A stretch of 64,000 nt of DNA from Gammaproteobacteria bacterium (GCA_009838035.1 VXSK01000002.1:1-64000); one strand, 5' to 3'; positions 2 through 14,609 are shown, numbered from the stretch's first letter. Numbers and translations: made by a program. Notes: generated by a model from the letters alone, not told the origin.

Positions 2-1702
2 CCCGGACGGGTAGTCGTCGATGCCGCTGCCGGCGCGGAGATCCGTATCGAGGGAATGGACTGGGTGTTTTCGCCCGGCGAGGAGATTTCACTGGACCCG
101 GGCACTTACGCTCTCACCGTAAGCGCCCCCCGCTACAAGGACCTGAACGTGCCGCTGGTCGTGGAGGGCGGCGGCGACCTGGAACCGTTCACGGCGGACC
201 TGGAGCCCGACTGGGCGGAGATTACGGCCAGCAGCGATCCGCCAGGAGCCGAATTGCGCTCGGAAGGGCAGGTCCTGGGGACAACCCCGGCAACGGTGGA
301 ATTGCTGTCCGGCGAGCGCGTACTGTCGTTCTCCCGGCCCGGATTCGCCACGCATCGCGAACGGCTGACCGTGGTTGCGGGTTCGCCGCAGGCCCTGCCG
401 ACCATCCGCCTGCAGCCTGCCGCCGGCGTGCTTCGGGTGCAGACCGACCCGCCCGGCGCCAGCATTACCGTCGATGGGAACTTTCGCGGAGGATCGCCCG
501 CGACCGTGGAAGTGAGCCCGGACCGGGCGCACCGGGTCGTGGTGTCGCGGGCGGGCTACGAGTCGCAGGAACGCACGGTGACGCTGGGGCGGGGCGCTGA
601 GCAGTCCCTGAACATTCGACTTGAGCCGCGTCTGGGAACGATTCGCGTATTGAGCCGCCCGGCCGGAGCGCAGGTCAGCGTCAACGGGCAGTTCGCGGGA
701 CGGACCCCGCTGGAGCTGCAATTGCCTTCAGCCGAACAGCAGCTTGAATTCAGCCTGGAAGGCTACGTGGCGCAGTCGCGCGAGGTGGTGCCCCAGCCTG
801 CCTATCCCCAGGAGGTGCAAGTCGAGCTCCTGACGCCGCAGCAGCAGATGCTGGCCTCCCAGCCCACCGAAATCGAAACGTCGCAGGGCGCGACCATGAT
901 CATGCTGTACCCCGGCGAGTTCGAGATGGGGTCGCAGCGCGGTTCGCAGGGATGGCGCAGCAACGAGGTGCGCCGCATGATCAGGCTCACGAAACGCTAT
1001 TACCTGGGCGTAAACGAAGTCACCAATCGGGAATTTCGCGCTTTCATTCCCAATCACACCTCCGGAGCGGAGCGCTTCCGGTCGCTGGCGGCCGACGGCG
1101 GTCCCGCGGTGAACGTTGAATGGCAGGCCGCCGCGGCCTTCTGCAACTGGCTTAGCTCGCAGGAGAACCTGCCGCTTCAGTATCAGAGCCGGGCCGGCCG
1201 GCTGATTCCGGTGGACGAGCCGGGGACCGGCTACCGCCTGCCGACCGAGGCGGAGTGGGTCTGGGCGGCCCGCTACCGGGGCGGTGCCGGGAACTCGCGG
1301 TACCCCTGGGGCGAACGTATGCCTCCTCCGGAGCGCTCGGGCAACTATGCGGACCAGTCGGCCGGCAGCCTCGTTACCAACGTGCTGAGCGCCTACAACG
1401 ACTTCTTTCCCTTCACGGCCCCAGTCGGTTCGTTTCCGGCCAATTCGCTGGGCTTCCATGATCTCGGCGGCAACGCGGCCGAATGGACAGGCGATTACTA
1501 CGGCACCGATACGCTCTATCCCAACTTCGAGGTGGACCCGCGCGGTCCGCAGGAAGGACGCTTTCACGTGATCCGCGGCTCGGGTTGGCTGCACGGCACG
1601 TTGCGCGAACTGCGCTGGGCCTTCCGCGATTTTGGCGCCGAAGAGCGGCTCGATGTAGGATTTCGCCTGGCGCGCTACGCCGAATTGCAGGAACCGGAAT
1701 GA
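2..1702 (+). CDS. PEGA-repeat protein with C-terminal SUMF1/FGE-like domain (5' end outside window)
   Basis: The frame is open from base 2 and reads through the first ATG at 56 into a recognisable PEGA motif, so the gene starts before the window. The visible 566 residues hold about four PEGA-type repeats (the DPPGA...V.G...G.TP pattern recurs) over the first 270 residues, then a formylglycine-generating-enzyme/SUMF1 fold with motifs such as MGS, EVTNREF, RLPTEAEW and GGNAAEW, ending GFRLAR. PEGA repeats usually bind surface or peptidoglycan-associated partners. The C-terminal GSGW...R segment lacks the paired cysteines of true FGE, so sulfatase activation is unlikely and a binding role is more probable. 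The stop overlaps the next gene by 4 bp (ATGA). Confidence 0.85.
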   Translation, partial: PGRVVVDAAAGAEIRIEGMDWVFSPGEEISLDPGTYALTVSAPRYKDLNVPLVVEGGGDLEPFTADLEPDWAEITASSDPPGAELRSEGQVLGTTPATVELLSGERVLSFSRPGFATHRERLTVVAGSPQALPTIRLQPAAGVLRVQTDPPGASITVDGNFRGGSPATVEVSPDRAHRVVVSRAGYESQERTVTLGRGAEQSLNIRLEPRLGTIRVLSRPAGAQVSVNGQFAGRTPLELQLPSAEQQLEFSLEGYVAQSREVVPQPAYPQEVQVELLTPQQQMLASQPTEIETSQGATMIMLYPGEFEMGSQRGSQGWRSNEVRRMIRLTKRYYLGVNEVTNREFRAFIPNHTSGAERFRSLAADGGPAVNVEWQAAAAFCNWLSSQENLPLQYQSRAGRLIPVDEPGTGYRLPTEAEWVWAARYRGGAGNSRYPWGERMPPPERSGNYADQSAGSLVTNVLSAYNDFFPFTAPVGSFPANSLGFHDLGGNAAEWTGDYYGTDTLYPNFEVDPRGPQEGRFHVIRGSGWLHGTLRELRWAFRDFGAEERLDVGFRLARYAELQEPE

Positions 1703-2195: not shown

Positions 2196-4982
2196 TCAGA
2201 AGTCGTAGGTCACTTCAGCAAACCAGACCTGCCCGCGCACATCAACCCTGGACGCATCGAAAGGCCGGCCCTGGCCGTTGAGCGCAAACGGAAAATCCGA
2301 GTCGAATATATTCCTGCCGCCCAGCCGCACAAGGAGGCCGTTGTCCCACTGATAGGTGCCGGACAGGTCCACCGTGTAGCGGCTGTCCACCTGCATGTCC
2401 GGCACGCGGGGCTCGCCAAATGCGTTGGACGAATAGTGATTGTTCAGGTAGCCCGGCGTGTAATTGAAGAACATGCTCGCCGATAGCCGACCCTTGAACC
2501 AATCCAGTTGCGCCTGGATTTTGCGCTTGTCTATGCCCACGAACTCGCCCAGGAAACGGGCTTTCGGCGCGTCCGCCGTTACCTGATCGAACATGTCAAT
2601 GACGTAGTGGTAGTAGAGAATGGGAGTGAAGGTACCCCAGTCTTGCGTTTCGATGTTCCATTTCAACTGAAAGTCCAGGGATGTGTGCTCGCGGCTGCTG
2701 ATGTTCACGACTCTGCTGATCGATCGGATCAACGCCCCTGTGGCCGGGTCACGTTCAAAGAACTGCGGAAGATTGCCGTAAATTTCAGCCGGAAGAAGAT
2801 TACGCAACTCACTACTGCTGGCGATGCGATTCTGGAAATCGATCAGAGAATAGTCCACGTTGATGGTAAGGCCTTGCGCCCAGCCTGGCTGCCAACCGAA
2901 ACCGATGCTCAGGTTGTCCGACTGCTCCGGCTTCACATCGGGATTGGGGCCGAAGGCCTGGCAAGCTCCGGGCACGAAACCGTTAATAAGCGGATCATAT
3001 GCGCCGAAGGCGGAGCAGAACTCGCTTTGCGTGCCGCCGAACAGATCATAGACGGTGGGCGCACGAAAAGCTTCTTCTGACCTCAGGCGGATCGCGAAGG
3101 TATCGGTAATCGTCAGTCGTGCGCCGAGGCCCAGGGAGGTGTTGGCGAAATTGGACTTGGAAAGCACCGGGTTGCCGTCGGCATCGCTTTCAAGGGAGCC
3201 TTCCACCGTATAGTCGTCTCTCCGCACGGCGACCCTGAAGGTAAGCGCCTGAATACCGGGCATGTTGTTCCCGGCGCCCAAAACGGGAATGTTTAGCTCG
3301 GCGAAATAGGCATCCAAATCGCGGTAAGGCCGCTCAAGGCCGATGTAGCCCTCCTGGAAATCGTCCAAGGACGCAAGTTCTTCCTTGCGTTGTTGCCCGC
3401 CCAGCACGAAGCGCACTTCACCGGCAGGCAGCTCGAGCACCTTGCCGTTCAGGAAGGCGTCAATCTCCGTTGTTTCGGTGCCTTCGCTCGAAGTGCTGAG
3501 AGGTCCGTACAGTTCCGCGATAGTAGCATTCTGTCCGGTTCCATCCCCGAAAAAGTTGACTGCCTCGCTGGGGTCCGGGCTGGCGATCAATTCCGCCGCC
3601 CGTCCATTGAATTGCATCTCATTGGAAAGAGGCCCGCGAGCCCGGTTGGTGAGCATGTATTGGTAGCTGTCCTTGTCTGAACCTGATCGCAGCCAGTCGA
3701 TCGTGAGCCTGAAGTTGTCGAGGAAGTCGAGGTCTATGCCACCCGAGATGCGATCGCTCACATTGGTCGAAGACCGCTCCGGGGTAGGCAAAAGGCCTAG
3801 ATCAACTTCGGTTTGCGGATCGTACGTCACATACACCGTAGTCCCGAAATTATTGAAGGCGTTGGAGGCCGGGACCGCAATTGAGCCGGTGCCGAAGCGC
3901 GTCAGGCGCGTATTGGTCTGAGCTTCCGTCCGATAGTACTCGCCACGCACCCGCAGCATGTCGGCAAAGTACTGCTCGAAGCTGAGCAGGACGGAATCGT
4001 CCTTGGTCGATCCGCCTGCGTCAACATCCAGGACTTCGATGCCGTCCGCCAACGTAACCCTACGAAAATCTCCCGGCTGCGCGTTCCGGCCGTCATTGCC
4101 TTCGGGCAGGGTCAGGTTCGCAGGGGCCCAGCGGGAAACGCCAACGCGGGCTGAGCGGGTGTTGAGTGGCTGCCCGCTAAAGGGGTTTACATTGAAGTTG
4201 TACGCCTGATCGCCGCCGAACATGGAGCTCCAGTCCTTCGTGTAGTACCCCGCCTTGCGGGCAGAATAGGGCTCACTGTCGGTGCGGCTCACGTTGAGGG
4301 ACACGTTTCCGGTGTCCCAGCTGTGCCCGTAGTAAGCGCTGAGCTGCGACTGGTCGGCGGCGTTGCTGCTCGATTCGTGGCGCAGCGTGACCTTGCCGCC
4401 CTGGAAGTCCTTGCGCGTAATGATATTGATGACGCCCGCCACCCCGTCCGAGCCGTAAACGGATGATCCGCCGTCCAGATTGACTTCAACGCGATCGATG
4501 GCTCCAGCAGGCATATTCCGCAGATTGACGAAGAAGTCTTCCTGCCCCGCCGCGCCGGCAATGCGCTTGCCGTTCAGCAGCACCAGGGTATTGGCCGAGC
4601 CGAATCCCTTCAGGTTGGCGGTGGAAACGCCTATCGAGAGCGCACCGAGGTTTCTGTCGATGGCCTCGCTGCCGAAGTTCATGTTGGTGGTGCCGTTGAT
4701 CGACGAGAAAACTTGCGGAATGGTGCGTATCACGTCTTCCACGGAACTGATGCCGCGCTTTGCAATATCCTCCGCTGTAATCGTCAGTACGCGCGCCGTT
4801 GGGTCTCCACCAGTCAGGCGCGTGCCGGTGACGGCAGTCGGCTCGAGTTCGAGCGGTACCTCTGCGGTTACAGGGGCTTGCTCCCCCTCTTGCTCGTCCG
4901 CGTCCTGCGCCAAACCCAGCATCGGTGTTGCGAAAGCCAGCAGTAAACCGGCCGCCCACGCGCTCTTGATAGTAGTTTGCAT
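2196..4982 (-). CDS. TonB-dependent outer-membrane receptor
   Basis: The 928-residue product has a signal peptide (about residues 1-25, ending at LGLAQ), a plug domain (about 50-200) with the typical LNGKR, DRVEV, GSSVYGSDGVAGVINIITR motifs, and a long beta-barrel ending in the terminal Phe (TYDF) expected of outer-membrane proteins. It would import a ligand across the outer membrane using TonB-ExbBD energy. The ligand cannot be read from sequence. The plug resembles the large oligopeptide/siderophore-like receptors of marine gammaproteobacteria. The ATG at 4982 has a purine-rich GAGGGGG upstream. The gene stands alone, with no transporter beside it. It is a distant paralogue of the receptor at 21993-25028. 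Confidence 0.92.
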   Translation of the reverse strand: MQTTIKSAWAAGLLLAFATPMLGLAQDADEQEGEQAPVTAEVPLELEPTAVTGTRLTGGDPTARVLTITAEDIAKRGISSVEDVIRTIPQVFSSINGTTNMNFGSEAIDRNLGALSIGVSTANLKGFGSANTLVLLNGKRIAGAAGQEDFFVNLRNMPAGAIDRVEVNLDGGSSVYGSDGVAGVINIITRKDFQGGKVTLRHESSSNAADQSQLSAYYGHSWDTGNVSLNVSRTDSEPYSARKAGYYTKDWSSMFGGDQAYNFNVNPFSGQPLNTRSARVGVSRWAPANLTLPEGNDGRNAQPGDFRRVTLADGIEVLDVDAGGSTKDDSVLLSFEQYFADMLRVRGEYYRTEAQTNTRLTRFGTGSIAVPASNAFNNFGTTVYVTYDPQTEVDLGLLPTPERSSTNVSDRISGGIDLDFLDNFRLTIDWLRSGSDKDSYQYMLTNRARGPLSNEMQFNGRAAELIASPDPSEAVNFFGDGTGQNATIAELYGPLSTSSEGTETTEIDAFLNGKVLELPAGEVRFVLGGQQRKEELASLDDFQEGYIGLERPYRDLDAYFAELNIPVLGAGNNMPGIQALTFRVAVRRDDYTVEGSLESDADGNPVLSKSNFANTSLGLGARLTITDTFAIRLRSEEAFRAPTVYDLFGGTQSEFCSAFGAYDPLINGFVPGACQAFGPNPDVKPEQSDNLSIGFGWQPGWAQGLTINVDYSLIDFQNRIASSSELRNLLPAEIYGNLPQFFERDPATGALIRSISRVVNISSREHTSLDFQLKWNIETQDWGTFTPILYYHYVIDMFDQVTADAPKARFLGEFVGIDKRKIQAQLDWFKGRLSASMFFNYTPGYLNNHYSSNAFGEPRVPDMQVDSRYTVDLSGTYQWDNGLLVRLGGRNIFDSDFPFALNGQGRPFDASRVDVRGQVWFAEVTYDF

Positions 4983-6936: not shown

Positions 6937-8430
6937 TCAGGGGTTCAGGCGCAGTGCGTGGTCCAGGCTGAGATGGGCGGCGAGAGCGCGCAGCCTGCGC
7001 TGCACCGTGTTTCCGACCAGGATATGCGCGTCTTCCGGTCCGGTGAGCACAAGTCTCTTCTTCGTGCGTTCCAGGCGGAACTGCTCGAGAACGCTGACGG
7101 CTCCGCCGGATATCGTGTAGGCAAGGCGCATCGCCAGGCCAATTGCGGTTGCCTGTCTTCTCTCGCCCTTGCTGATCAAACCGCTCAGACCCAGGCGTTT
7201 CAGGGTCCCGCGCAAAGCCGCATGGCGCGATGCCACGGCCAGGCCGAGCATGATTCGCTCGCCGTGATCGGCGCCGGTCAGCGGCATGCGCAATATGCGC
7301 AGGAACACCTGCTCGGCACGGTAGTCGGGATGTTCGGACCAGCCGATGTCGGACAGGTGGCAGGCGGCCTGCCTGAGCTTGTCCGGCGCGAGTCCTTCCA
7401 GCGCCGGCGCGATCCAGCCGGCCAGCAAGTCGCCGCCGGAACCGCCGCGGCCCATGCGCCGGGCGGCGCTCTCGCATAAAGAAAGCAGGGGGTCTATCTG
7501 CTGTTCGAGCGGCGTCAGGGCTTCGTACAGGCAGCCTTCGCGCAGGCCGTTGGCGGAGAACACGATCTGCCCGGCGCCGCTGCGCTTAACCAGGCATTCC
7601 AGGGCGACCGCCGCAAAGGGCAGCGATTCCAGCCGGTCGGCCCGCAATCCCTTGGCCGACTCGAGGCGCGGGCGGGGCCAGCCGGCCAGCATTGCGCAGA
7701 ATTCCGAAGCGTCGCGGGCCTCCAGCGCGTAATGATGGATGACGTGCAGCGGGTAACCGGATTCGTCCATGTGAATACGGGCCAATGCCCGCCAGGAGCC
7801 GCCTACCAGGTAAAGAGACTGCCCGTGCGCCTGCGGCAACCAGTCCAGTCCTTCAAGCTGGCCCTGAATCGCCTCCCGGCTTTCCCCAATGGACTCCCCG
7901 CCGTTTCCGCGCACCGTGCCCAGCGGCAGCGAAATACGCTCGGCCACGCTCCCGTCATCCAGAAGCGTCAGTTCCAGACTGGCGCCGCCGAGATCGGCCA
8001 CAACGCCGCTAGCCAGGGGGATTGCGCTGAGGACTCCGCCGGCTGAAACTTCAGCTTCCCGCTCCCCCGTCAGCAAGCGGACGTCCAGGCCGCATTCGTT
8101 GCGCACAGTCTCCAGGAACTGCGGCCCATTGCTTGCCTCCCGGACGGCCGCGGTCGCCACCGCCTGTACTTCAAGGACCCCCATTTGCGGGCACAGGCGG
8201 GCGAACCGGCGCAGGCTTTCCAGGGCCATCCCGATTCCGTCTTCAGACATTCTGCCGGTGCGGTCGAGTCCACGGCCCAGCCCGCACAGGACCTTTTCGT
8301 TGAATATCGGCAAGGGCGCCCGTCCGCCGTTCTCGTAGACGACCAGTCGCACCGAGTTCGAGCCGATGTCGATCACAGCTACCGGCGCCTCGCTTGGGGT
8401 CGCGGGGCTGGTTCGCAATACGCCCGGCAC
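6937..8430 (-). CDS. ppx: exopolyphosphatase / guanosine pentaphosphate phosphohydrolase (Ppx/GppA)
   Basis: The 497-residue product has the ASKHA phosphate-binding motifs VIDIGSNSVRLVVYENG (about residues 18-34) and DLGGASLELTLLD (about 145), followed by the helical C-terminal HD-like half typical of Ppx. It removes terminal phosphate from polyphosphate and may also act on pppGpp. It starts at GTG 8430, only 6 bp after the ppk1 stop, so ppk1 and ppx form an operon in which synthesis and breakdown of polyphosphate are co-transcribed. Confidence 0.93.
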   Translation of the reverse strand: MPGVLRTSPATPSEAPVAVIDIGSNSVRLVVYENGGRAPLPIFNEKVLCGLGRGLDRTGRMSEDGIGMALESLRRFARLCPQMGVLEVQAVATAAVREASNGPQFLETVRNECGLDVRLLTGEREAEVSAGGVLSAIPLASGVVADLGGASLELTLLDDGSVAERISLPLGTVRGNGGESIGESREAIQGQLEGLDWLPQAHGQSLYLVGGSWRALARIHMDESGYPLHVIHHYALEARDASEFCAMLAGWPRPRLESAKGLRADRLESLPFAAVALECLVKRSGAGQIVFSANGLREGCLYEALTPLEQQIDPLLSLCESAARRMGRGGSGGDLLAGWIAPALEGLAPDKLRQAACHLSDIGWSEHPDYRAEQVFLRILRMPLTGADHGERIMLGLAVASRHAALRGTLKRLGLSGLISKGERRQATAIGLAMRLAYTISGGAVSVLEQFRLERTKKRLVLTGPEDAHILVGNTVQRRLRALAAHLSLDHALRLNP

Positions 8431-8436
8431 TGGCTG

Positions 8437-10644
8437 CTAGACGGCGGCTTTGACCAGTGTCGGGCGGGGTTTGTCTTCCGCGGCAGCAGAATCCCCGGTC
8501 TCTGGAAACAGTTCGCCGGGCATGGCCGGCTGCGACTCCCGCAGGGCGCTGCCCCGGCCGGAAAGGCTGGGGTTGGTCATGAACCAGGTATGGGCGCTGA
8601 AATCGCCGGATTGATGATCCAGGCGGCGGTAAGCGCCGTCCGGTCCGAGTTGCCAGCTCTGCATCACGTCGAAGCGATTCGCCATCAGGACCTGCTCCAC
8701 GAGTTGCCGCTTGACCGTCTCGTTCTCGATCGGCACCAGCGTCTCCACGCGATGGTGCAGGTTGCGGGGCATCCAGTCGGCCGACGATACGAAAACCTTG
8801 CTGTCGGTGGAGGGAAGCTGGTGGCCGGCGCCGAAACACATGACACGGGAGTGTTCCAGGAACCTGCCGACCATGCTGCGCACCTGGATATTCTCCGACA
8901 TGCCGGGCACGCCCGGGCGCAGGCAGCAAATGCCCCGGACGTAGAGTTCGATCCGCACGCCGGCCTGGCTCGCCCGATAGAGGCAGTCGATGATATCCGG
9001 GTCAACGAGCGAATTGAGTTTGGCCCAGATCTCCGCCGGGCGCCCGGCGCGGGCATGGGCGACTTCATCCTCGATCAGTTCGACCAGACTGCTTTTCATT
9101 TGCGCGGGCGCGTACACCAGCTTTTCCATGTCCTCGGGCGTCGCGTAACCTGTCATGTAGTTGAACAGGCGCGCGGTATCGCGCCCCAGGGCCGCGTCGC
9201 AGGTGAAGAAGCTCAGGTCCGAATAAACGCGCGCGTTGATCGGATGGTAGTTGCCGGTGCCGAAATGGGTGTAGGTTCGCAATTCTCCCGCTTCCCTTCG
9301 CACCACCAGCGATACCTTGGCGTGGGTCTTGAGTTCCATGAAGCCGTAGACCACCTGCACGCCGGCGCGCTCCATCTCCTGCGCCCAGCGGATGTTTGCC
9401 GCTTCGTCGAAACGCGCCCGAAGCTCGACCATGGCGGTGACCAGCTTGCCGGCCTCGGCAGCGGCGATCAGCGCCTCGACGATCGGCGAGTCCTCGGACG
9501 TGCGGTACAGGGTCTGCTTGATCGCCACCACCGCCGGGTCATCGGTGGCGCGGCGCAGGAACTGCACGACCACGTCGAAACTCTCGTACGGATGCTGCAC
9601 CACGAAGTCCTTGGCGCGTATGGCGGCGAGGATGTCGCCGCCATATTCGCGGACCCGTTCGGGGAAGCGCACATTGAGCGGCTCGTGCTGCAGGTCGCGG
9701 CGCTGGTCCGTGATGATCTGCTTGATGTCCGACAGCCCCAGCATGCCGTCGATGTTGAAAACATGCGCATGCGAGGCGTTGAACGCTTTGAGCACGAACC
9801 GGCGGAAGTTCTTCGGCATGCCGGCCGCCACCTCCACCCGGATGACGTTGCCTCTGCGGCGCCGCAGCAGGGCGGTCTCGAAGGTCCGCACCAGGTCCTC
9901 GGCTTCCTCGTCGATCTCAAGGTCACTGTCGCGGCTGATACGGAAGATGCCGTGGCCCAGGATCTTCATGCCGGGGAACAGCAGCCTGAAGTTGCGGGCG
10001 ATGATTTCCTCGACGGCGACGAAGCGCAGGGCCTTGCCGGGCACCCGCACGAACCGCTCGATCTGGGGCGGGACCAGGACCAGGCCGTTGATCTCGTGCT
10101 TGTCCGCGGGCCGCATCAGCCGCAGCACGTACACAAGGCAACCGGTCTGTATGAAGGGGAAGGGGTGCGCCGTGTCGACCGCCTGGGGGGTCAGTACCGG
10201 AAACAACTGGTTCTCGAACCATCGCGACAGCCACTCCTGGGCCCGATTGCCCAATTCCTCGGGTTTTACCACCGCCACGCCGGCTTCGCGGCATTCGGCC
10301 AGCAACTGCGCGCTGCGCGTGGATTGGGCCTTGAGCAGCCTCTTTACCTGTTCGCGTATCGCTTCGAGCTGTTCGCCGGGGGTCAGCCCGTCATCGCTGC
10401 TCTTGGTGACGCCCGCCGCCACCTGCGCCATGAGGCCGGCCGCCCGCACCATGTAGAACTCGTCGAGGTTGCTGGCCGAGATGGACAGGAACCGCACGCG
10501 CTCCAGCAGCGGGTGGTTCTCGTTGCCGGCTTCCTCCAGTACCCGGGTATTGAATTCCAGCCACGACAGCTCGCGATTGATCAGGCGGCCGGCGACGCGC
10601 TCCGCCTCGCTCAGCGCCCGCGGCTTGCCGGACGCAGGCGTCAT
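8437..10644 (-). CDS. ppk1: polyphosphate kinase 1
   Basis: The product reversibly transfers the gamma-phosphate of ATP to polyphosphate. The 735-residue protein starts with the conserved INRELSWLEFNTRVLEEA region and SNLDEFYMVRAAGL, and carries YTHFGTGNYHP and the later FLEHSR segment, which hold the active-site histidines of the family. The ATG at 10644 gives a normal family length. The ATG at 10704 would add 20 residues and has AGGA upstream, so it remains possible. The open frame extends further to 11193, but that part is antisense to sixA and is not real. ppk1 is divergent from the sixA-motor unit. Confidence 0.93.
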   Translation of the reverse strand: MTPASGKPRALSEAERVAGRLINRELSWLEFNTRVLEEAGNENHPLLERVRFLSISASNLDEFYMVRAAGLMAQVAAGVTKSSDDGLTPGEQLEAIREQVKRLLKAQSTRSAQLLAECREAGVAVVKPEELGNRAQEWLSRWFENQLFPVLTPQAVDTAHPFPFIQTGCLVYVLRLMRPADKHEINGLVLVPPQIERFVRVPGKALRFVAVEEIIARNFRLLFPGMKILGHGIFRISRDSDLEIDEEAEDLVRTFETALLRRRRGNVIRVEVAAGMPKNFRRFVLKAFNASHAHVFNIDGMLGLSDIKQIITDQRRDLQHEPLNVRFPERVREYGGDILAAIRAKDFVVQHPYESFDVVVQFLRRATDDPAVVAIKQTLYRTSEDSPIVEALIAAAEAGKLVTAMVELRARFDEAANIRWAQEMERAGVQVVYGFMELKTHAKVSLVVRREAGELRTYTHFGTGNYHPINARVYSDLSFFTCDAALGRDTARLFNYMTGYATPEDMEKLVYAPAQMKSSLVELIEDEVAHARAGRPAEIWAKLNSLVDPDIIDCLYRASQAGVRIELYVRGICCLRPGVPGMSENIQVRSMVGRFLEHSRVMCFGAGHQLPSTDSKVFVSSADWMPRNLHHRVETLVPIENETVKRQLVEQVLMANRFDVMQSWQLGPDGAYRRLDHQSGDFSAHTWFMTNPSLSGRGSALRESQPAMPGELFPETGDSAAAEDKPRPTLVKAAV

Positions 10645-10746: not shown

Positions 10747-11283
10747 ATGAAGCGCCTTTGGCTGCTTCGGCATGCCAAGGCCGGGCCGTATTCCGCCGAC
10801 GATTTCGAGCGGGCGCTGGCCCCCAGAGGCCGGAAGAACGCGCCCGCGATGGGAGAGAAGCTGGCGGCCGTGGGATGCGCTCCCGAGAGAATCCTCTGTT
10901 CCGCCGGTCGCCGGGCCGTGGAGACGATGTGCGGCGTCCTGCCCAGCCTTCCCGCCGACCTCAGCATCGAGGTGATGCGGAGGCTCTACACCTTCAGCCC
11001 GGGCAACGTGCTGCAGTGCCTGCGCGAACTGCCGGAGGATGCCGGCGACGTCATGGTGGTCGGTCACAACCCGGCTTTGCAGGAATTGGCGCTGTACCTG
11101 GCCGGCAGGGGCGAAGAGGAGGCTTTCGCTGTGCTCCACGGAAAGTTTCCCACCTGCGCCGTGGCCGAGCTGGAGTTTCCCGAGTCGCCGCACACGACGG
11201 ACTGGGACGAAGGCAGCGCATTTCTTCGGCGTGTCATGACGCCCCGCCCGCCGCGATACTTGCGGACACCCCTGGTCGACTAG
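10747..11283 (+). CDS. sixA: SixA-type phosphohistidine phosphatase
   Basis: The 178-residue protein belongs to the histidine phosphatase (phosphoglycerate mutase-like) superfamily. It has the catalytic RHAKAG motif at residues 8-13, the SixA-specific DFERALAPRGRKNAP segment and the second catalytic histidine in VVGHNPALQEL. Such enzymes remove phosphate from phosphohistidine on Hpt or phosphotransferase proteins. It is the first gene of a tight plus-strand cluster; the next gene begins 10 bp later. An AAGGAGG lies about 22 bp upstream of the ATG, too far to be an ideal ribosome-binding site, and no other in-frame start is available. Confidence 0.88.
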   Translation: MKRLWLLRHAKAGPYSADDFERALAPRGRKNAPAMGEKLAAVGCAPERILCSAGRRAVETMCGVLPSLPADLSIEVMRRLYTFSPGNVLQCLRELPEDAGDVMVVGHNPALQELALYLAGRGEEEAFAVLHGKFPTCAVAELEFPESPHTTDWDEGSAFLRRVMTPRPPRYLRTPLVD

Positions 11284-11293
11284 TGAGCAATCG

Positions 11294-12091
11294 ATGAGAA
11301 GACAGTTACCGGTCGAATTCGTTTTTCAGATTTTTTCGCTGTTGCTTTCGGTGATCATCGTGCACGCGATGTACGTCGCCTGGATCCGCCCCCAGGCGAA
11401 CGCGGTCATCGAAGAGCAGCGGATCATGCTGGAGCAGGACGCCGACTACGTACCCGAACGCTCCCTGTACGTGATCGTGCGCGATTTCGAGCAGGAGGCC
11501 TGCCTGATCCTGGCGCTCTGGGCGCTTGCGATCATGGGCTACAAGGCCCGCGGGGCGCTGCGCGAGCGCTCACTGCTGCAGCGTGACCTCCTGCCACTGG
11601 CGGAAGGGGTGCGCATCCTGCCGGAGGACACGCGCGAGCACGCGCGCCAGTTGCGTGCGCTGCCCGAATCACAGCAGCGCTTGCTGTTGCCGCGGGTGCT
11701 ACTTAGCGCGCTGCAGCGGTTCGGCGCCACCGGCAATGTGCAGGACGTTTCGTCCGCTACCCAGACGCTGGTCAATGCCGAAGCCGAGCGGCTGGAGTCG
11801 GAACTGTCGATGATCCGGTATATCGCCTGGGCGATACCCTCGATCGGCTTTATCGGCACCGTGCGCGGAATCGGCCAGGCGCTGACGCTGGCCTACAGGG
11901 CCGTGGAGGGCGACATCAGCGGCGTGACCGAGAGCCTCGGCGTGGCCTTCAATTCCACCTTCTTCGCCCTGCTGGTCAGCATCATCATCATGTTCCTGGT
12001 CCACCAGCTTCAATTGTTGCAGGAGCGACTGGTCTTCGAGACCTCGGATTACTGCGACGAACGGCTGATCCGCCGCCTGCAGGGCGACTGA
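11294..12091 (+). CDS. MotA/TolQ/ExbB-like proton-channel subunit
   Basis: The 265-residue membrane protein has four likely transmembrane helices at about residues 9-31, 68-83, 176-198 and 219-238. The last two carry the family pattern IPSIGFIGTVRGIGQAL and a Thr/Ser-containing helix with FNSTFFALLVSII. The cytoplasmic loop between helices 2 and 3 (about 85-175) is mostly charged helix, as in MotA/ExbB proteins. Such subunits form a pentamer around two MotB/ExbD-type partners and convert ion flow into rotation or force. The expected partner is encoded two genes downstream and has a matching anchor helix with Asp15. Flagellar, Tol and Exb genes are absent here, so this is not an obvious stator of those systems. 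Confidence 0.85.
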   Translation: MRRQLPVEFVFQIFSLLLSVIIVHAMYVAWIRPQANAVIEEQRIMLEQDADYVPERSLYVIVRDFEQEACLILALWALAIMGYKARGALRERSLLQRDLLPLAEGVRILPEDTREHARQLRALPESQQRLLLPRVLLSALQRFGATGNVQDVSSATQTLVNAEAERLESELSMIRYIAWAIPSIGFIGTVRGIGQALTLAYRAVEGDISGVTESLGVAFNSTFFALLVSIIIMFLVHQLQLLQERLVFETSDYCDERLIRRLQGD

Positions 12092-12109
12092 GCCGGGGGG
12101 CGTCAACAA

Positions 12110-13522
12110 ATGGCGCTGGTCGCGCTGGAAATCAATGGAGCGGCACTGGTAGGCGCTACCTCCGCCGGAGTGCTGTTCAACGAGCCGGGCGTGGCGCTGG
12201 TGCAAAAGCGCCGCGTGGCGTTCGGGCGCGAAGCGGTCGAAGAGGCGCGGCGCGATCCCGCAAACAGTTACCGGAATTACTGGGAATTGCTGTCGGACGA
12301 ATCGCTACCCAGGCCGGCGCGGGGGTTTCGCAGTTATGCCGACCTGGCCCACGGTCAAATGCAGGGGCTTTGGAAGCGCTTTCGGGAGTCCGTGGGAGAC
12401 ATTAGCGGTGTGGTCCTGGTCATTCCGGCCGGCGTTGCGGAAGACCGCCTGGCGTTGCTGCTGGGGATCGCCGAGGAAGCCGGACTGCCGGTGTCCGGGC
12501 TGGTCGAAAGCGGAGTTGCCGCGGTGCGGGGCGCCGCGTCGGGCCGCGCCTGCCTCCACGTCGAAGCAACGGCCGAGCGTCTGGCGGTGTCCCGGCTCGC
12601 GGCGGGTGACGGGCGAATCCGGCGCGAGGAGATCCTGTTCGACGGGCGTCCGGGATTGCGGCATCTGCGAGCGGCCATGATTAGCTACGTTGCCGGCCGG
12701 TTCGTGGCGGGTTCCCGCTTTGATCCGCTGGACCTGCCCGTAACCGAACAGGAACTGGCGGGGCGACTGGATGCCTGGCTCCAGGCGGTCCTGTCCGGCG
12801 GCGAACTGGGAATCGAGCTTGATGCGGCTCCGGTGACCGCTACCGCGGTCCTCACTCGAGATGACTGTCTTGCTTCGATCGAGCGGCTGCTGGGAGCCGC
12901 GGGAAACCGTCTGCGATCGTGGTGCACGGGTCCCGGGGCCGCGGACGTATACCTGTCGGGGACCCTTGCGGAGGCCCCCGGCTGCGCCGAGGTGTTTGCG
13001 CGGCTGCTCGCCATGGAGGTCCAGGTCCTGCCGGCCGGCGCCGCGGCATTGGGAGCGCTGGAGCGGTTCACGCCGATGGCGGGCGCGAAGGACCGACACG
13101 TGCTGCTAAAGTCCCTGCCGGCAGCTGACTTGGCGGACGGCCCGGGCACGGCGCGCAATGCCCGGCCGGACCCTGCCGCGGCGCCGGTCGCCGGAAACAG
13201 GGAAACGGGAGAGCGGACGCCCACCCACGTCGTGTTCGGCGGCCGGGCCTGGCGCATCGGCGCCGAAGGCCTGCATCTCGGTTCGTCGCCGCAACCCGGG
13301 GGCCTGTCGATCGTGCTCTCACCGGAAGGCGGGATTTCGAGAAACCACTGCACCGTGGTGCTGGAGAACGGACAGGCGGTATTGCATGATCACAGCCGAT
13401 ACGGAACCAACCTGAACGGCGCCCCGGTGGCCGATTCGGCGCCGTTGCGCGGGGGCGACGTGGTGGGAGTGGGACCGCTGGAGTTCCTGATCGCGCGCGA
13501 GGTGGGCGGCGATGGCTCGTAG
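12110..13522 (+). CDS. actin/Hsp70-like domain protein with C-terminal FHA domain
   Basis: The 470-residue protein has two parts. Residues 1 to about 310 resemble an ASKHA fold (LVALEINGAALVGATS at the start, SGVVLVIPAGV near 100, LVESGVAAVRGAASGRACLHVEA near 135), though the nucleotide-binding motifs are degenerate. After a Pro/Ala-rich linker, about residues 385-465 form an FHA domain with LGSS, GISRNHC and SRYGTNLNG, the phosphothreonine-binding residues. No transmembrane segment is seen, so it should be cytoplasmic. It lies between the channel subunit and the vWA partner and overlaps the latter by 11 bp. The first-half assignment is inferred from pattern and is less certain than FHA. Confidence 0.75.
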   Translation: MALVALEINGAALVGATSAGVLFNEPGVALVQKRRVAFGREAVEEARRDPANSYRNYWELLSDESLPRPARGFRSYADLAHGQMQGLWKRFRESVGDISGVVLVIPAGVAEDRLALLLGIAEEAGLPVSGLVESGVAAVRGAASGRACLHVEATAERLAVSRLAAGDGRIRREEILFDGRPGLRHLRAAMISYVAGRFVAGSRFDPLDLPVTEQELAGRLDAWLQAVLSGGELGIELDAAPVTATAVLTRDDCLASIERLLGAAGNRLRSWCTGPGAADVYLSGTLAEAPGCAEVFARLLAMEVQVLPAGAAALGALERFTPMAGAKDRHVLLKSLPAADLADGPGTARNARPDPAAAPVAGNRETGERTPTHVVFGGRAWRIGAEGLHLGSSPQPGGLSIVLSPEGGISRNHCTVVLENGQAVLHDHSRYGTNLNGAPVADSAPLRGGDVVGVGPLEFLIAREVGGDGS

Positions 13523-14609
13523 GCGCTTTCACGTATTCAGCATGTCGTTTCTGGACATCATTTCCTGCGGCTTCGGCGCGGTCGTGCTGTTCTTCGTGAT
13601 CATCAACGCGCAGGTGCGCCTGCGGGCCGATGCCGAGCGTATCGATCTGCTCAGCGATTCCACGCAGCTTGAAGAGGAGGTCCTGGAAGGGCGCAAGGAC
13701 CTGCTGCAGTTGCGCGGTGAGCGCGACACGCTCGACGAGCGACGCGCAACGGCAATCGAGGAGTTGAGAAAGCTGCGCGAGCGCCTTGCCGCACTGCTGG
13801 CGGAGCTGGCGGAATACGAACGCCTGGGGACCCAGAGCGAGGAGTCGGTCGAGAAGCTGCGGGCCGACGTGGATCGGCTCAGGGAAATGCAGGAGGAACT
13901 GGAGGCGCGTGTCGCCGAGGCGGACGAAGGAACGGGGCAGCGCGTGCGCGGCTTCGAGGGCACGGGCGAGCGGCAATACCTGACAGGCATGCAGATGGGT
14001 GGCGATCGCGTACTGATCCTGGTGGATGCGTCCGCCAGCATGCTGGGGCGCACCTACATCGACGTGTTGCGTTTTCGCCTGATGGAAGAAGAACTCAAGC
14101 CCCGCGCGCCCAAGTGGGTCCAGGTCGTGAACTCGGTCGACTGGATCACGACGCGGCTGGAGCCGCAACAGAGATTTCAGGTCTATATCTTCGGAGTCGA
14201 GCACAGGAGCATCCTTGAGGGCACGGACGGCGAGTGGCTCAGCGTGGCCGACGGCGCGCGGGTTTCCGAAGCGATCGAGGCCTTGCGCAAGTTCGCGCCG
14301 AACGGCGGAACCAGCCTGCATGCGGCGATGCGCGCCATTCGCGCCATGGAGCCGCTGCCGGACAACGTGTACCTGCTGACCGACGGACTGCCGACGCAGG
14401 GCGCCAGTCCTCCCTCGCGGGTCGGATGGGTGGATACGCGGGCGCGTGAGCGGTTCTTTGACCGCGCTCGACGCGATCTGCCCTCGGGGATTCCGGTCAA
14501 TGTGCTGTTCTACCCGATGGACGGGGACCCGCGCGCGACCGGCTATTTCTGGCTGATGGCCTCGCAGACCCGGGGGTCCTTCGTCAGCGTTTCCCGCGAC
14601 TGGCCCTGA
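13512..14609 (+). CDS. MotB-like anchor, coiled coil and von Willebrand factor A domain protein
   Basis: The 365-residue protein begins with a short cytoplasmic tail and one transmembrane helix (about residues 13-32), SFLDIISCGFGAVVLFFVI. This matches the anchor helix of MotB/ExbD/ZorB proteins, with Asp15 in the position of the ion-carrying aspartate. A long charged coiled coil (about 35-135) leads to a vWA domain (about 160-360) with the MIDAS motif DASAS at 172-176, the later GGTSLHAAM threonine and LLTDG. If topology follows MotB, the coiled coil and vWA lie in the periplasm. It starts inside the FHA gene (11-bp overlap) and is almost certainly the partner of the MotA-like channel. The usual OmpA-type peptidoglycan-binding domain is replaced by vWA. 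Confidence 0.85.
   Translation: MARRRFHVFSMSFLDIISCGFGAVVLFFVIINAQVRLRADAERIDLLSDSTQLEEEVLEGRKDLLQLRGERDTLDERRATAIEELRKLRERLAALLAELAEYERLGTQSEESVEKLRADVDRLREMQEELEARVAEADEGTGQRVRGFEGTGERQYLTGMQMGGDRVLILVDASASMLGRTYIDVLRFRLMEEELKPRAPKWVQVVNSVDWITTRLEPQQRFQVYIFGVEHRSILEGTDGEWLSVADGARVSEAIEALRKFAPNGGTSLHAAMRAIRAMEPLPDNVYLLTDGLPTQGASPPSRVGWVDTRARERFFDRARRDLPSGIPVNVLFYPMDGDPRATGYFWLMASQTRGSFVSVSRDWP

Follow-up and report, generated by a model that had tools for sequence, protein, structure and literature searches.

Bacteria use proton-driven motors in the cell envelope for outer-membrane upkeep, for nutrient import, for gliding and in phage defence. We know of no such motor in which Ser/Thr phosphorylation acts as the switch by way of an FHA protein, and for the vWA-type motor, which has been predicted, no phenotype, partners or regulation are known to us. 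The DNA analysed here, a stretch of 64 000 nucleotides from a Gammaproteobacteria bacterium (GCA_009838035.1, VXSK01000002.1:1-64000; the whole stretch is referred to as the window), encodes a MotA/TolQ/ExbB-like channel subunit, an Hsp70-like protein with an FHA domain and a membrane-anchored vWA protein, vWA1 (Table 1). These three genes are the 3′ part of a larger conserved operon, and as a whole they are probably best explained as the surviving block of an envelope-machine operon that would encode a phospho-controlled vWA motor.

The core of such a motor is not new, because a TolQ-like channel with paired vWA proteins, each with an Asp in its transmembrane (TM) helix, was predicted to form a 5:2 motor in 2025 (PMC12204202); the earlier note on this DNA, which had thought of a new class of envelope motor, was overtaken on this point. 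As described in the section of that paper on the vWA family, the Idiomarina-type TPH-vWA system resembles the present one in its TolQ-like channel, its TM-tethered vWA protein with a conserved TM Asp, its heterologous vWA pairs, the absence of TolR/ExbD and its occurrence in Proteobacteria; the likeness is one of description. The same section differs in that it contains no kinase-TPR, FHA-like/PEGA/FGE, Hsp70-like/FHA or lipoprotein genes and no co-distribution of kinase and FHA. These parts and this co-distribution are what is new here, and the system is apparently a phospho-regulated version of the predicted kind of motor. A 2025 paper on MotAB evolution (PMC12505986) makes no mention of vWA. 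The vWA-MoxR ternary conflict systems were considered and set aside, since no MotA/TolQ/ExbB is mentioned in their description (PMC7159879). A literature search on the annotation names, the coverage of which excluded preprints and most subscription papers, gave no match.

The MotA/ExbB-type character of the channel was confirmed by Pfam (54.8 bits against PF01618; cut-off 22.9), and the protein scored far under the TolQ and ExbB cut-offs (27 bits against the TolQ equivalog, with a cut-off of 221 and a score of 254 for the genome's real TolQ). Thr189 and Thr222 were invariant in 70/70 channel homologues and aligned with the pore threonines of the genome's own TolQ and of an ExbB-like protein. 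Because the genome encodes this genuine TolQ and other ExbB-like channels besides, the motor of the window would be an additional one. A fusion of the channel and Hsp70-like genes, apparent in loci L062 and L086, is not claimed, since L062 has a frameshift within TM4 and L086 a masked stretch. The frameshift in L062 (7807-10002), which destroys TM4, is either a sequencing error or decay.

The architecture proposed in the earlier note for vWA1, a single TM helix with Asp15 and, after it, a long helix and then the vWA fold, was borne out. Asp15 and the DxSxS residues of the metal-ion-dependent adhesion site (MIDAS) proved to be invariant in 80/80 homologues; the Pfam vWA match is sub-threshold, and the domain was confirmed by its fold. 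The protein ends in a conserved DWP (window 14598-14606; D in 79/80 homologues, W and P in 80/80), which suggests a docking C terminus. A paralogue, vWA2, usually lies directly 3′ of the full-length vWA1 match in the order sample, and in 74/74 loci outside the genus of the window with room for it, vWA2 adjoins vWA1 with the channel beside them. The Asp19 of its TM helix is invariant (70/70), and the D-x-S-x-S of the MIDAS is kept in both vWA proteins. No TolR/ExbD gene was seen alongside the channel and the vWA pair in the operon gene lists, and an OmpA-like peptidoglycan-binding domain was not found on vWA1, the C terminus of which is the vWA fold. The system thus shares with TolQR, ExbBD and MotAB the MotA_ExbB domain, the pore threonines and a partner with a TM Asp, whereas the C-terminal portion of this partner is a long coiled coil with a vWA domain, in place of a TolR/ExbD or OmpA-like domain. 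Taken together, the channel and its Asp-bearing partner are most likely part of a proton-driven motor in the cell envelope. A stator-like channel with an Asp-bearing partner that ends in a periplasmic vWA domain, as first proposed, is supported, and it is conserved as a tight unit.

In relatives, for which gene boundaries were set by simple open reading frame (ORF) calling, the operon runs from a lipoprotein gene (lip0) through genes for a kinase-TPR protein, a protein with the fold of formylglycine-generating enzyme (FGE), a small exported protein, the channel, the Hsp70-like/FHA protein, vWA1 and vWA2, sometimes to a second lipoprotein gene. The order from lip0 to vWA2 was found in dozens of loci. 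Outside the genus of the window, 55 loci had room upstream; the channel, kinase/TPR and FGE genes were present in 55/55, lip0 in 53, the Hsp70-like gene in 48 and a gene for a SixA-like histidine phosphatase in 0. Median intergenic gaps were -11 to 13 bp, except for the FGE-channel interval with its small gene, and most gaps were shorter than 60 bp. The search of neighbourhoods across genomes thus showed the channel, the Hsp70-like/FHA protein and vWA1 to occur together as a conserved unit. This much of the compact four-gene module of the earlier note stands; the membership of SixA and the self-sufficiency of the module do not, and its list of parts was incomplete in that the kinase, the FGE/PEGA protein, the lipoproteins and vWA2 had been missed.

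In the Ser/Thr kinase protein, a single TM helix joins the kinase domain, on the cytoplasmic side, to a TPR/PEGA-like part in the periplasm. The FGE protein also crosses the membrane once: the domain at its N terminus, in the cytoplasm, is FHA-like (hhalign 91%, E 9e-7), and its periplasmic portion holds PEGA repeats and an end with the FGE-sulfatase fold; Pfam PEGA and FGE-sulfatase were found in its orthologues. On reading of the sequence, the catalytic cysteines of formylglycine-generating enzymes seem to be missing from the FGE-fold end (L066 638-3058), and its role is therefore probably one of binding or structure. The lipobox Cys is invariant in each of the two lipoproteins, neither of which gave a known Pfam family or a significant sequence match in the PDB. 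Just downstream of the operon, a separate second Ser/Thr kinase and a PP2C phosphatase are encoded in three loci (L060 12517-14650; L065 5402-7531; L035 14426-16001).

The third protein had been called actin-like. This holds for the actin/Hsp70 fold superfamily and not for actin proper, which was rejected because the list of structure matches was filled by Hsp70 nucleotide-binding domains (NBDs); a better description is an NBD of the Hsp70 type in which the phosphate loops have degenerated. The AlphaFold2 (AF2) model of its N-terminal 327 residues has a mean predicted local distance difference test (pLDDT) score of 85 and was aligned by VIA-align with DnaK (2v7y) over 325 residues (Z 27.5, root-mean-square deviation 3.6 Å, 18% identity). 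Likeness to Hsp70/DnaK ends with this NBD fold: the substrate-binding domain is absent, an FHA domain forms the C terminus instead, and the GTT and GGGT phosphate loops vary among the 67 homologues compared and are without the DnaK motifs, which makes ATPase activity doubtful. With its canonical phosphate loops lost, the Hsp70-like part probably serves as a scaffold for docking rather than as a chaperone. The C-terminal FHA domain was recognised as expected (Pfam, E 4.9e-9) and is the sole FHA match in the genome; its core residues SRxH, S, GT and N are retained in nearly all sequences.

The operon kinase domain and the FHA domain on the Hsp70-like protein, which are the two traits compared here, were scored in 78 complete-operon loci. 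Both were present in 52 loci and neither in 24; FHA alone was found in two and the kinase alone in none (Fisher p 4e-18, a value inflated by relatedness). Among the 24 loci with neither, 13 have no Hsp70-like gene, 10 have an Hsp70-like protein without recognisable FHA, and in one both survive as decayed remnants. One of the two FHA-only exceptions is L065, with its separate kinase and PP2C just downstream. In the tree of channel and vWA1, the basal lineages are without both domains, the minimum numbers of changes are seven for the kinase and six for FHA, and several joint losses are seen with no independent pair in the opposite direction. The simplest reading is that the ancestral machine had neither domain, and that phospho-control was added to this older motor and later lost as a pair several times. 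The joint presence or absence of the two domains suggests phospho-control of the motor. Several observations weigh against such control. Locus L089 retains FHA with no detectable kinase; the co-distribution is phylogenetically confounded, so that with five independent pairs on supported branches, three to four in the same direction and none in the opposite one, a sign test is not significant; and the phosphate-binding Arg of the first FHA loop is replaced by Ser/Thr in 43/56 sequences, so phosphothreonine binding may be weak or altered.

It is also conceivable, though improbable, that the motor is as described and that the kinase/FHA pair shares only the operon with it and has its task elsewhere, such as in general cell-wall stress signalling by the periplasmic TPR/PEGA part of the kinase. 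The kinase does have a periplasmic part of its own, and many genomes, streamlined ones of 1.3-1.4 Mb included, keep the core although they have neither kinase nor FHA; however, the FHA protein is encoded between the channel and vWA genes, with an overlap of 11 bp, and where the kinase has been lost FHA has gone too.

In the reading that we hold to be probable, the motor would work as follows. By analogy with its family, the channel protein would form a pentamer in the inner membrane, into the pore of which vWA1 and vWA2 would each put one helix with an Asp that looks essential, giving a heterodimeric axle. Proton flow past the Asp residues and the two pore threonines would turn or pull this axle, so that its coiled coils and the vWA heads in the periplasm would exert force on partners there; from operon content and topology, the most likely of these are the PEGA/FGE-fold protein, the TPR part of the kinase and the lipoproteins of the operon. 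In the cytoplasm, the Ser/Thr kinase would phosphorylate a Thr on a component of the system; the Hsp70-like protein would bind this phospho-Thr through its FHA domain and so switch the assembly or activity of the motor. More tentatively, and at somewhat less than even chances, the whole could be a kinase-gated rotary envelope motor, in which the TM Ser/Thr kinase would sense the periplasm and the Hsp70-derived FHA protein would act as a phospho-dependent clutch on the channel pentamer, which would turn a vWA1/vWA2 axle that pulls the PEGA/FGE protein and the lipoproteins. If true, this would join a known motor core to a control layer that is not described for 5:2 motors in the literature searched. 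A Ser/Thr kinase and an FHA protein with an envelope machine, sometimes with PP2C nearby, are also found in the threonine phosphorylation pathway (PpkA/Fha) of the type VI secretion system (T6SS); unlike there, no T6SS core genes were seen in the operons and the machine would be a proton-channel motor.

The FGE-fold protein invites a second comparison. An adhesion or gliding force unit that moves surface components, like the Agl motor of Myxococcus or GldLM of Flavobacterium with the FGE-fold GldK, would find a parallel in the FGE-fold, PEGA and lipoprotein genes beside a protein of the proton-channel family, which recall the Gld gene set, and vWA domains often bind ligands. We regard this explanation as unlikely, as the operon gene lists show no recurring genes for adhesins or secretion, the operon is kept in reduced genomes and no GldL/GldM match was seen. 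GldKLMN of Bacteroidota likewise has a proton motor beside an FGE-fold protein, but its motor parts have no sequence match here and it is not known to have vWA heads or a kinase.

Relatives of vWA1 were found in 52/58 genomes of the order sample (43/47 good genomes). In a class sample of 321 genomes, 27 have vWA1, and the channel is present in 27/27; in 25 of them a single contig carries both genes, no more than a few kb apart, and in two they are on different contigs. Five further class genomes gave weak channel relatives only, and in the phylum sample vWA1 was found in 14/299 genomes, most of them from one other family. Named hosts include Woeseiaceae, Steroidobacteraceae, Chromatiales and many other Gammaproteobacteria, as well as a few metagenome-assembled genomes under other phylum names; Povalibacter uvarum and Steroidobacter gossypii are cultured isolates with the operon. 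In several families the operon adjoins housekeeping genes of the ilv/proB type. Streamlined genomes of 1.3-1.4 Mb (L064, L082) retain lip0, TPR, FGE, channel, vWA1 and vWA2, whereas the kinase domain and the Hsp70-like/FHA gene have been lost from them. In two genomes the system is present in two versions (L032, L033; G016, G029), the divergent one without kinase domain and Hsp70-like gene.

The wide vertical distribution, the housekeeping neighbours and the retention in 1.3-1.4 Mb genomes favour a role in envelope maintenance or transport and disfavour defence. A defence device, which the earlier note had entertained, is unlikely, given that the four genes have no convincing PADLOC matches and that the system is near-universal in the order with housekeeping neighbours. 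For a Zorya-like anti-phage device in particular, there are the MotA/MotB-type pair, since ZorAB likewise has a MotA-like channel and an Asp-anchor partner, and the weak resemblance of the channel to ZorA (E 0.0038), confined to TM3-4. With no ZorC/ZorD-like gene in the operon gene lists, no peptidoglycan-binding domain and a distribution that is not defence-like (43/47 good order genomes, ilv/proB-type neighbours, streamlined genomes), such a device is most improbable. The analysis thus gives a full list of parts for a predicted vWA motor that nearly all members of one gammaproteobacterial order possess and that streamlined genomes retain. It also names cultured hosts, and the linked gain and loss of kinase and FHA offers a control hypothesis that can be tested.

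In the window, the four ORFs were found where the earlier note had placed them, with gaps of 10 and 18 bp and an overlap of 11 bp between the third gene and vWA1. The window begins at a contig end, within the FGE gene (its first 1702 bases correspond to residues 241-806), and another contig of the same genome, C31, ends in FGE residues 1-258, preceded by the kinase and lip0. Since the two FGE halves share an 18-residue overlap, C31 and the contig of the window (C2) probably abut. Between the small gene and the channel lie ppx and ppk on the opposite strand, followed by the SixA-like gene; this interruption is common to four other members of the genus (L066, L067, L069 and L070), and neither ppx nor ppk is near the operon in the 55 loci from outside the genus that have room upstream. 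In the genus of the window vWA1 and vWA2 are separated, vWA2 having been relocated in the genome of the window to contig C4. With the upstream parts split off by ppx-ppk-SixA and the contig end, and vWA2 moved, the earlier note had seen the tail of an interrupted operon. In two genus members, the relocated vWA2 adjoins a gene for a TerB-like membrane-anchored protein (L031 6861-8417; L037 7102-8744).

The SixA-like gene scored 40.1 bits against TIGR00249, below the family cut-off of 74.5. It had been taken for a partner, but was found in 0/75 loci outside the genus, where the SixA genes of relatives lie elsewhere in the genome. Because it is at the locus only in the genus of the window, it is probably a neighbour there and outside the system. 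A SixA gene that travels with ppk was also considered and dropped, as in the other order genomes searched SixA is linked neither to ppk nor to the operon. That the four genes including SixA form a compact, self-sufficient new module would agree with their tight spacing in the window; it is highly unlikely, being contradicted by the synteny of SixA, by the near-constant presence of vWA2 and the upstream genes elsewhere and by the remnants of these in the genome of the window.

Table 1. Positions of the features discussed, counted from the first nucleotide of the window.
Feature	Position	Strand	Basis or remark
SixA-like histidine phosphatase	10747..11283	+	His_Phos_1 E 4e-6; TIGR00249 40.1 bits
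MotA/TolQ/ExbB-like channel subunit (Mot), read as 4 TM	11294..12091	+	Pfam MotA_ExbB E 1e-14
Channel pore threonine Thr189	11858-11860	+	aligned to TolQ/ExbB threonines
Channel pore threonine Thr222	11957-11959	+	aligned to TolQ/ExbB threonines
Hsp70-NBD-like domain (residues 1-327) with C-terminal FHA (about 370-465)	12110..13522	+	AF2 model, VIA-align, Pfam
vWA1: TM helix (residues 13-31), long coiled coil, periplasmic vWA, C-terminal DWP	13512..14609	+	
vWA1 Asp15 codon	13554-13556	+	
vWA1 MIDAS D172-S176	14025-14039	+	
FGE protein, C-terminal 566 aa (FHA-like/TM/PEGA/FGE-sulfatase-fold membrane protein)	2..1702	+	89% identity to L066 FGE residues 241-806
Small exported protein, 124 aa	1699..2073	+	tblastn, 71% identity to L066 gene in equivalent place
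ppx and ppk	6937..10590	-	Pfam/NCBIfam; outside system, interrupt operon in the genus of the window

The hydrophobic segment of the small exported protein is N-terminal (residues 4-22). Between the small gene and ppx, the minus strand of the window carries a receptor-like ORF with the look of a TonB-dependent receptor (2196-4982); it is not present in L066, L067, L069 or L070, and was also found in genome G004 (L052).

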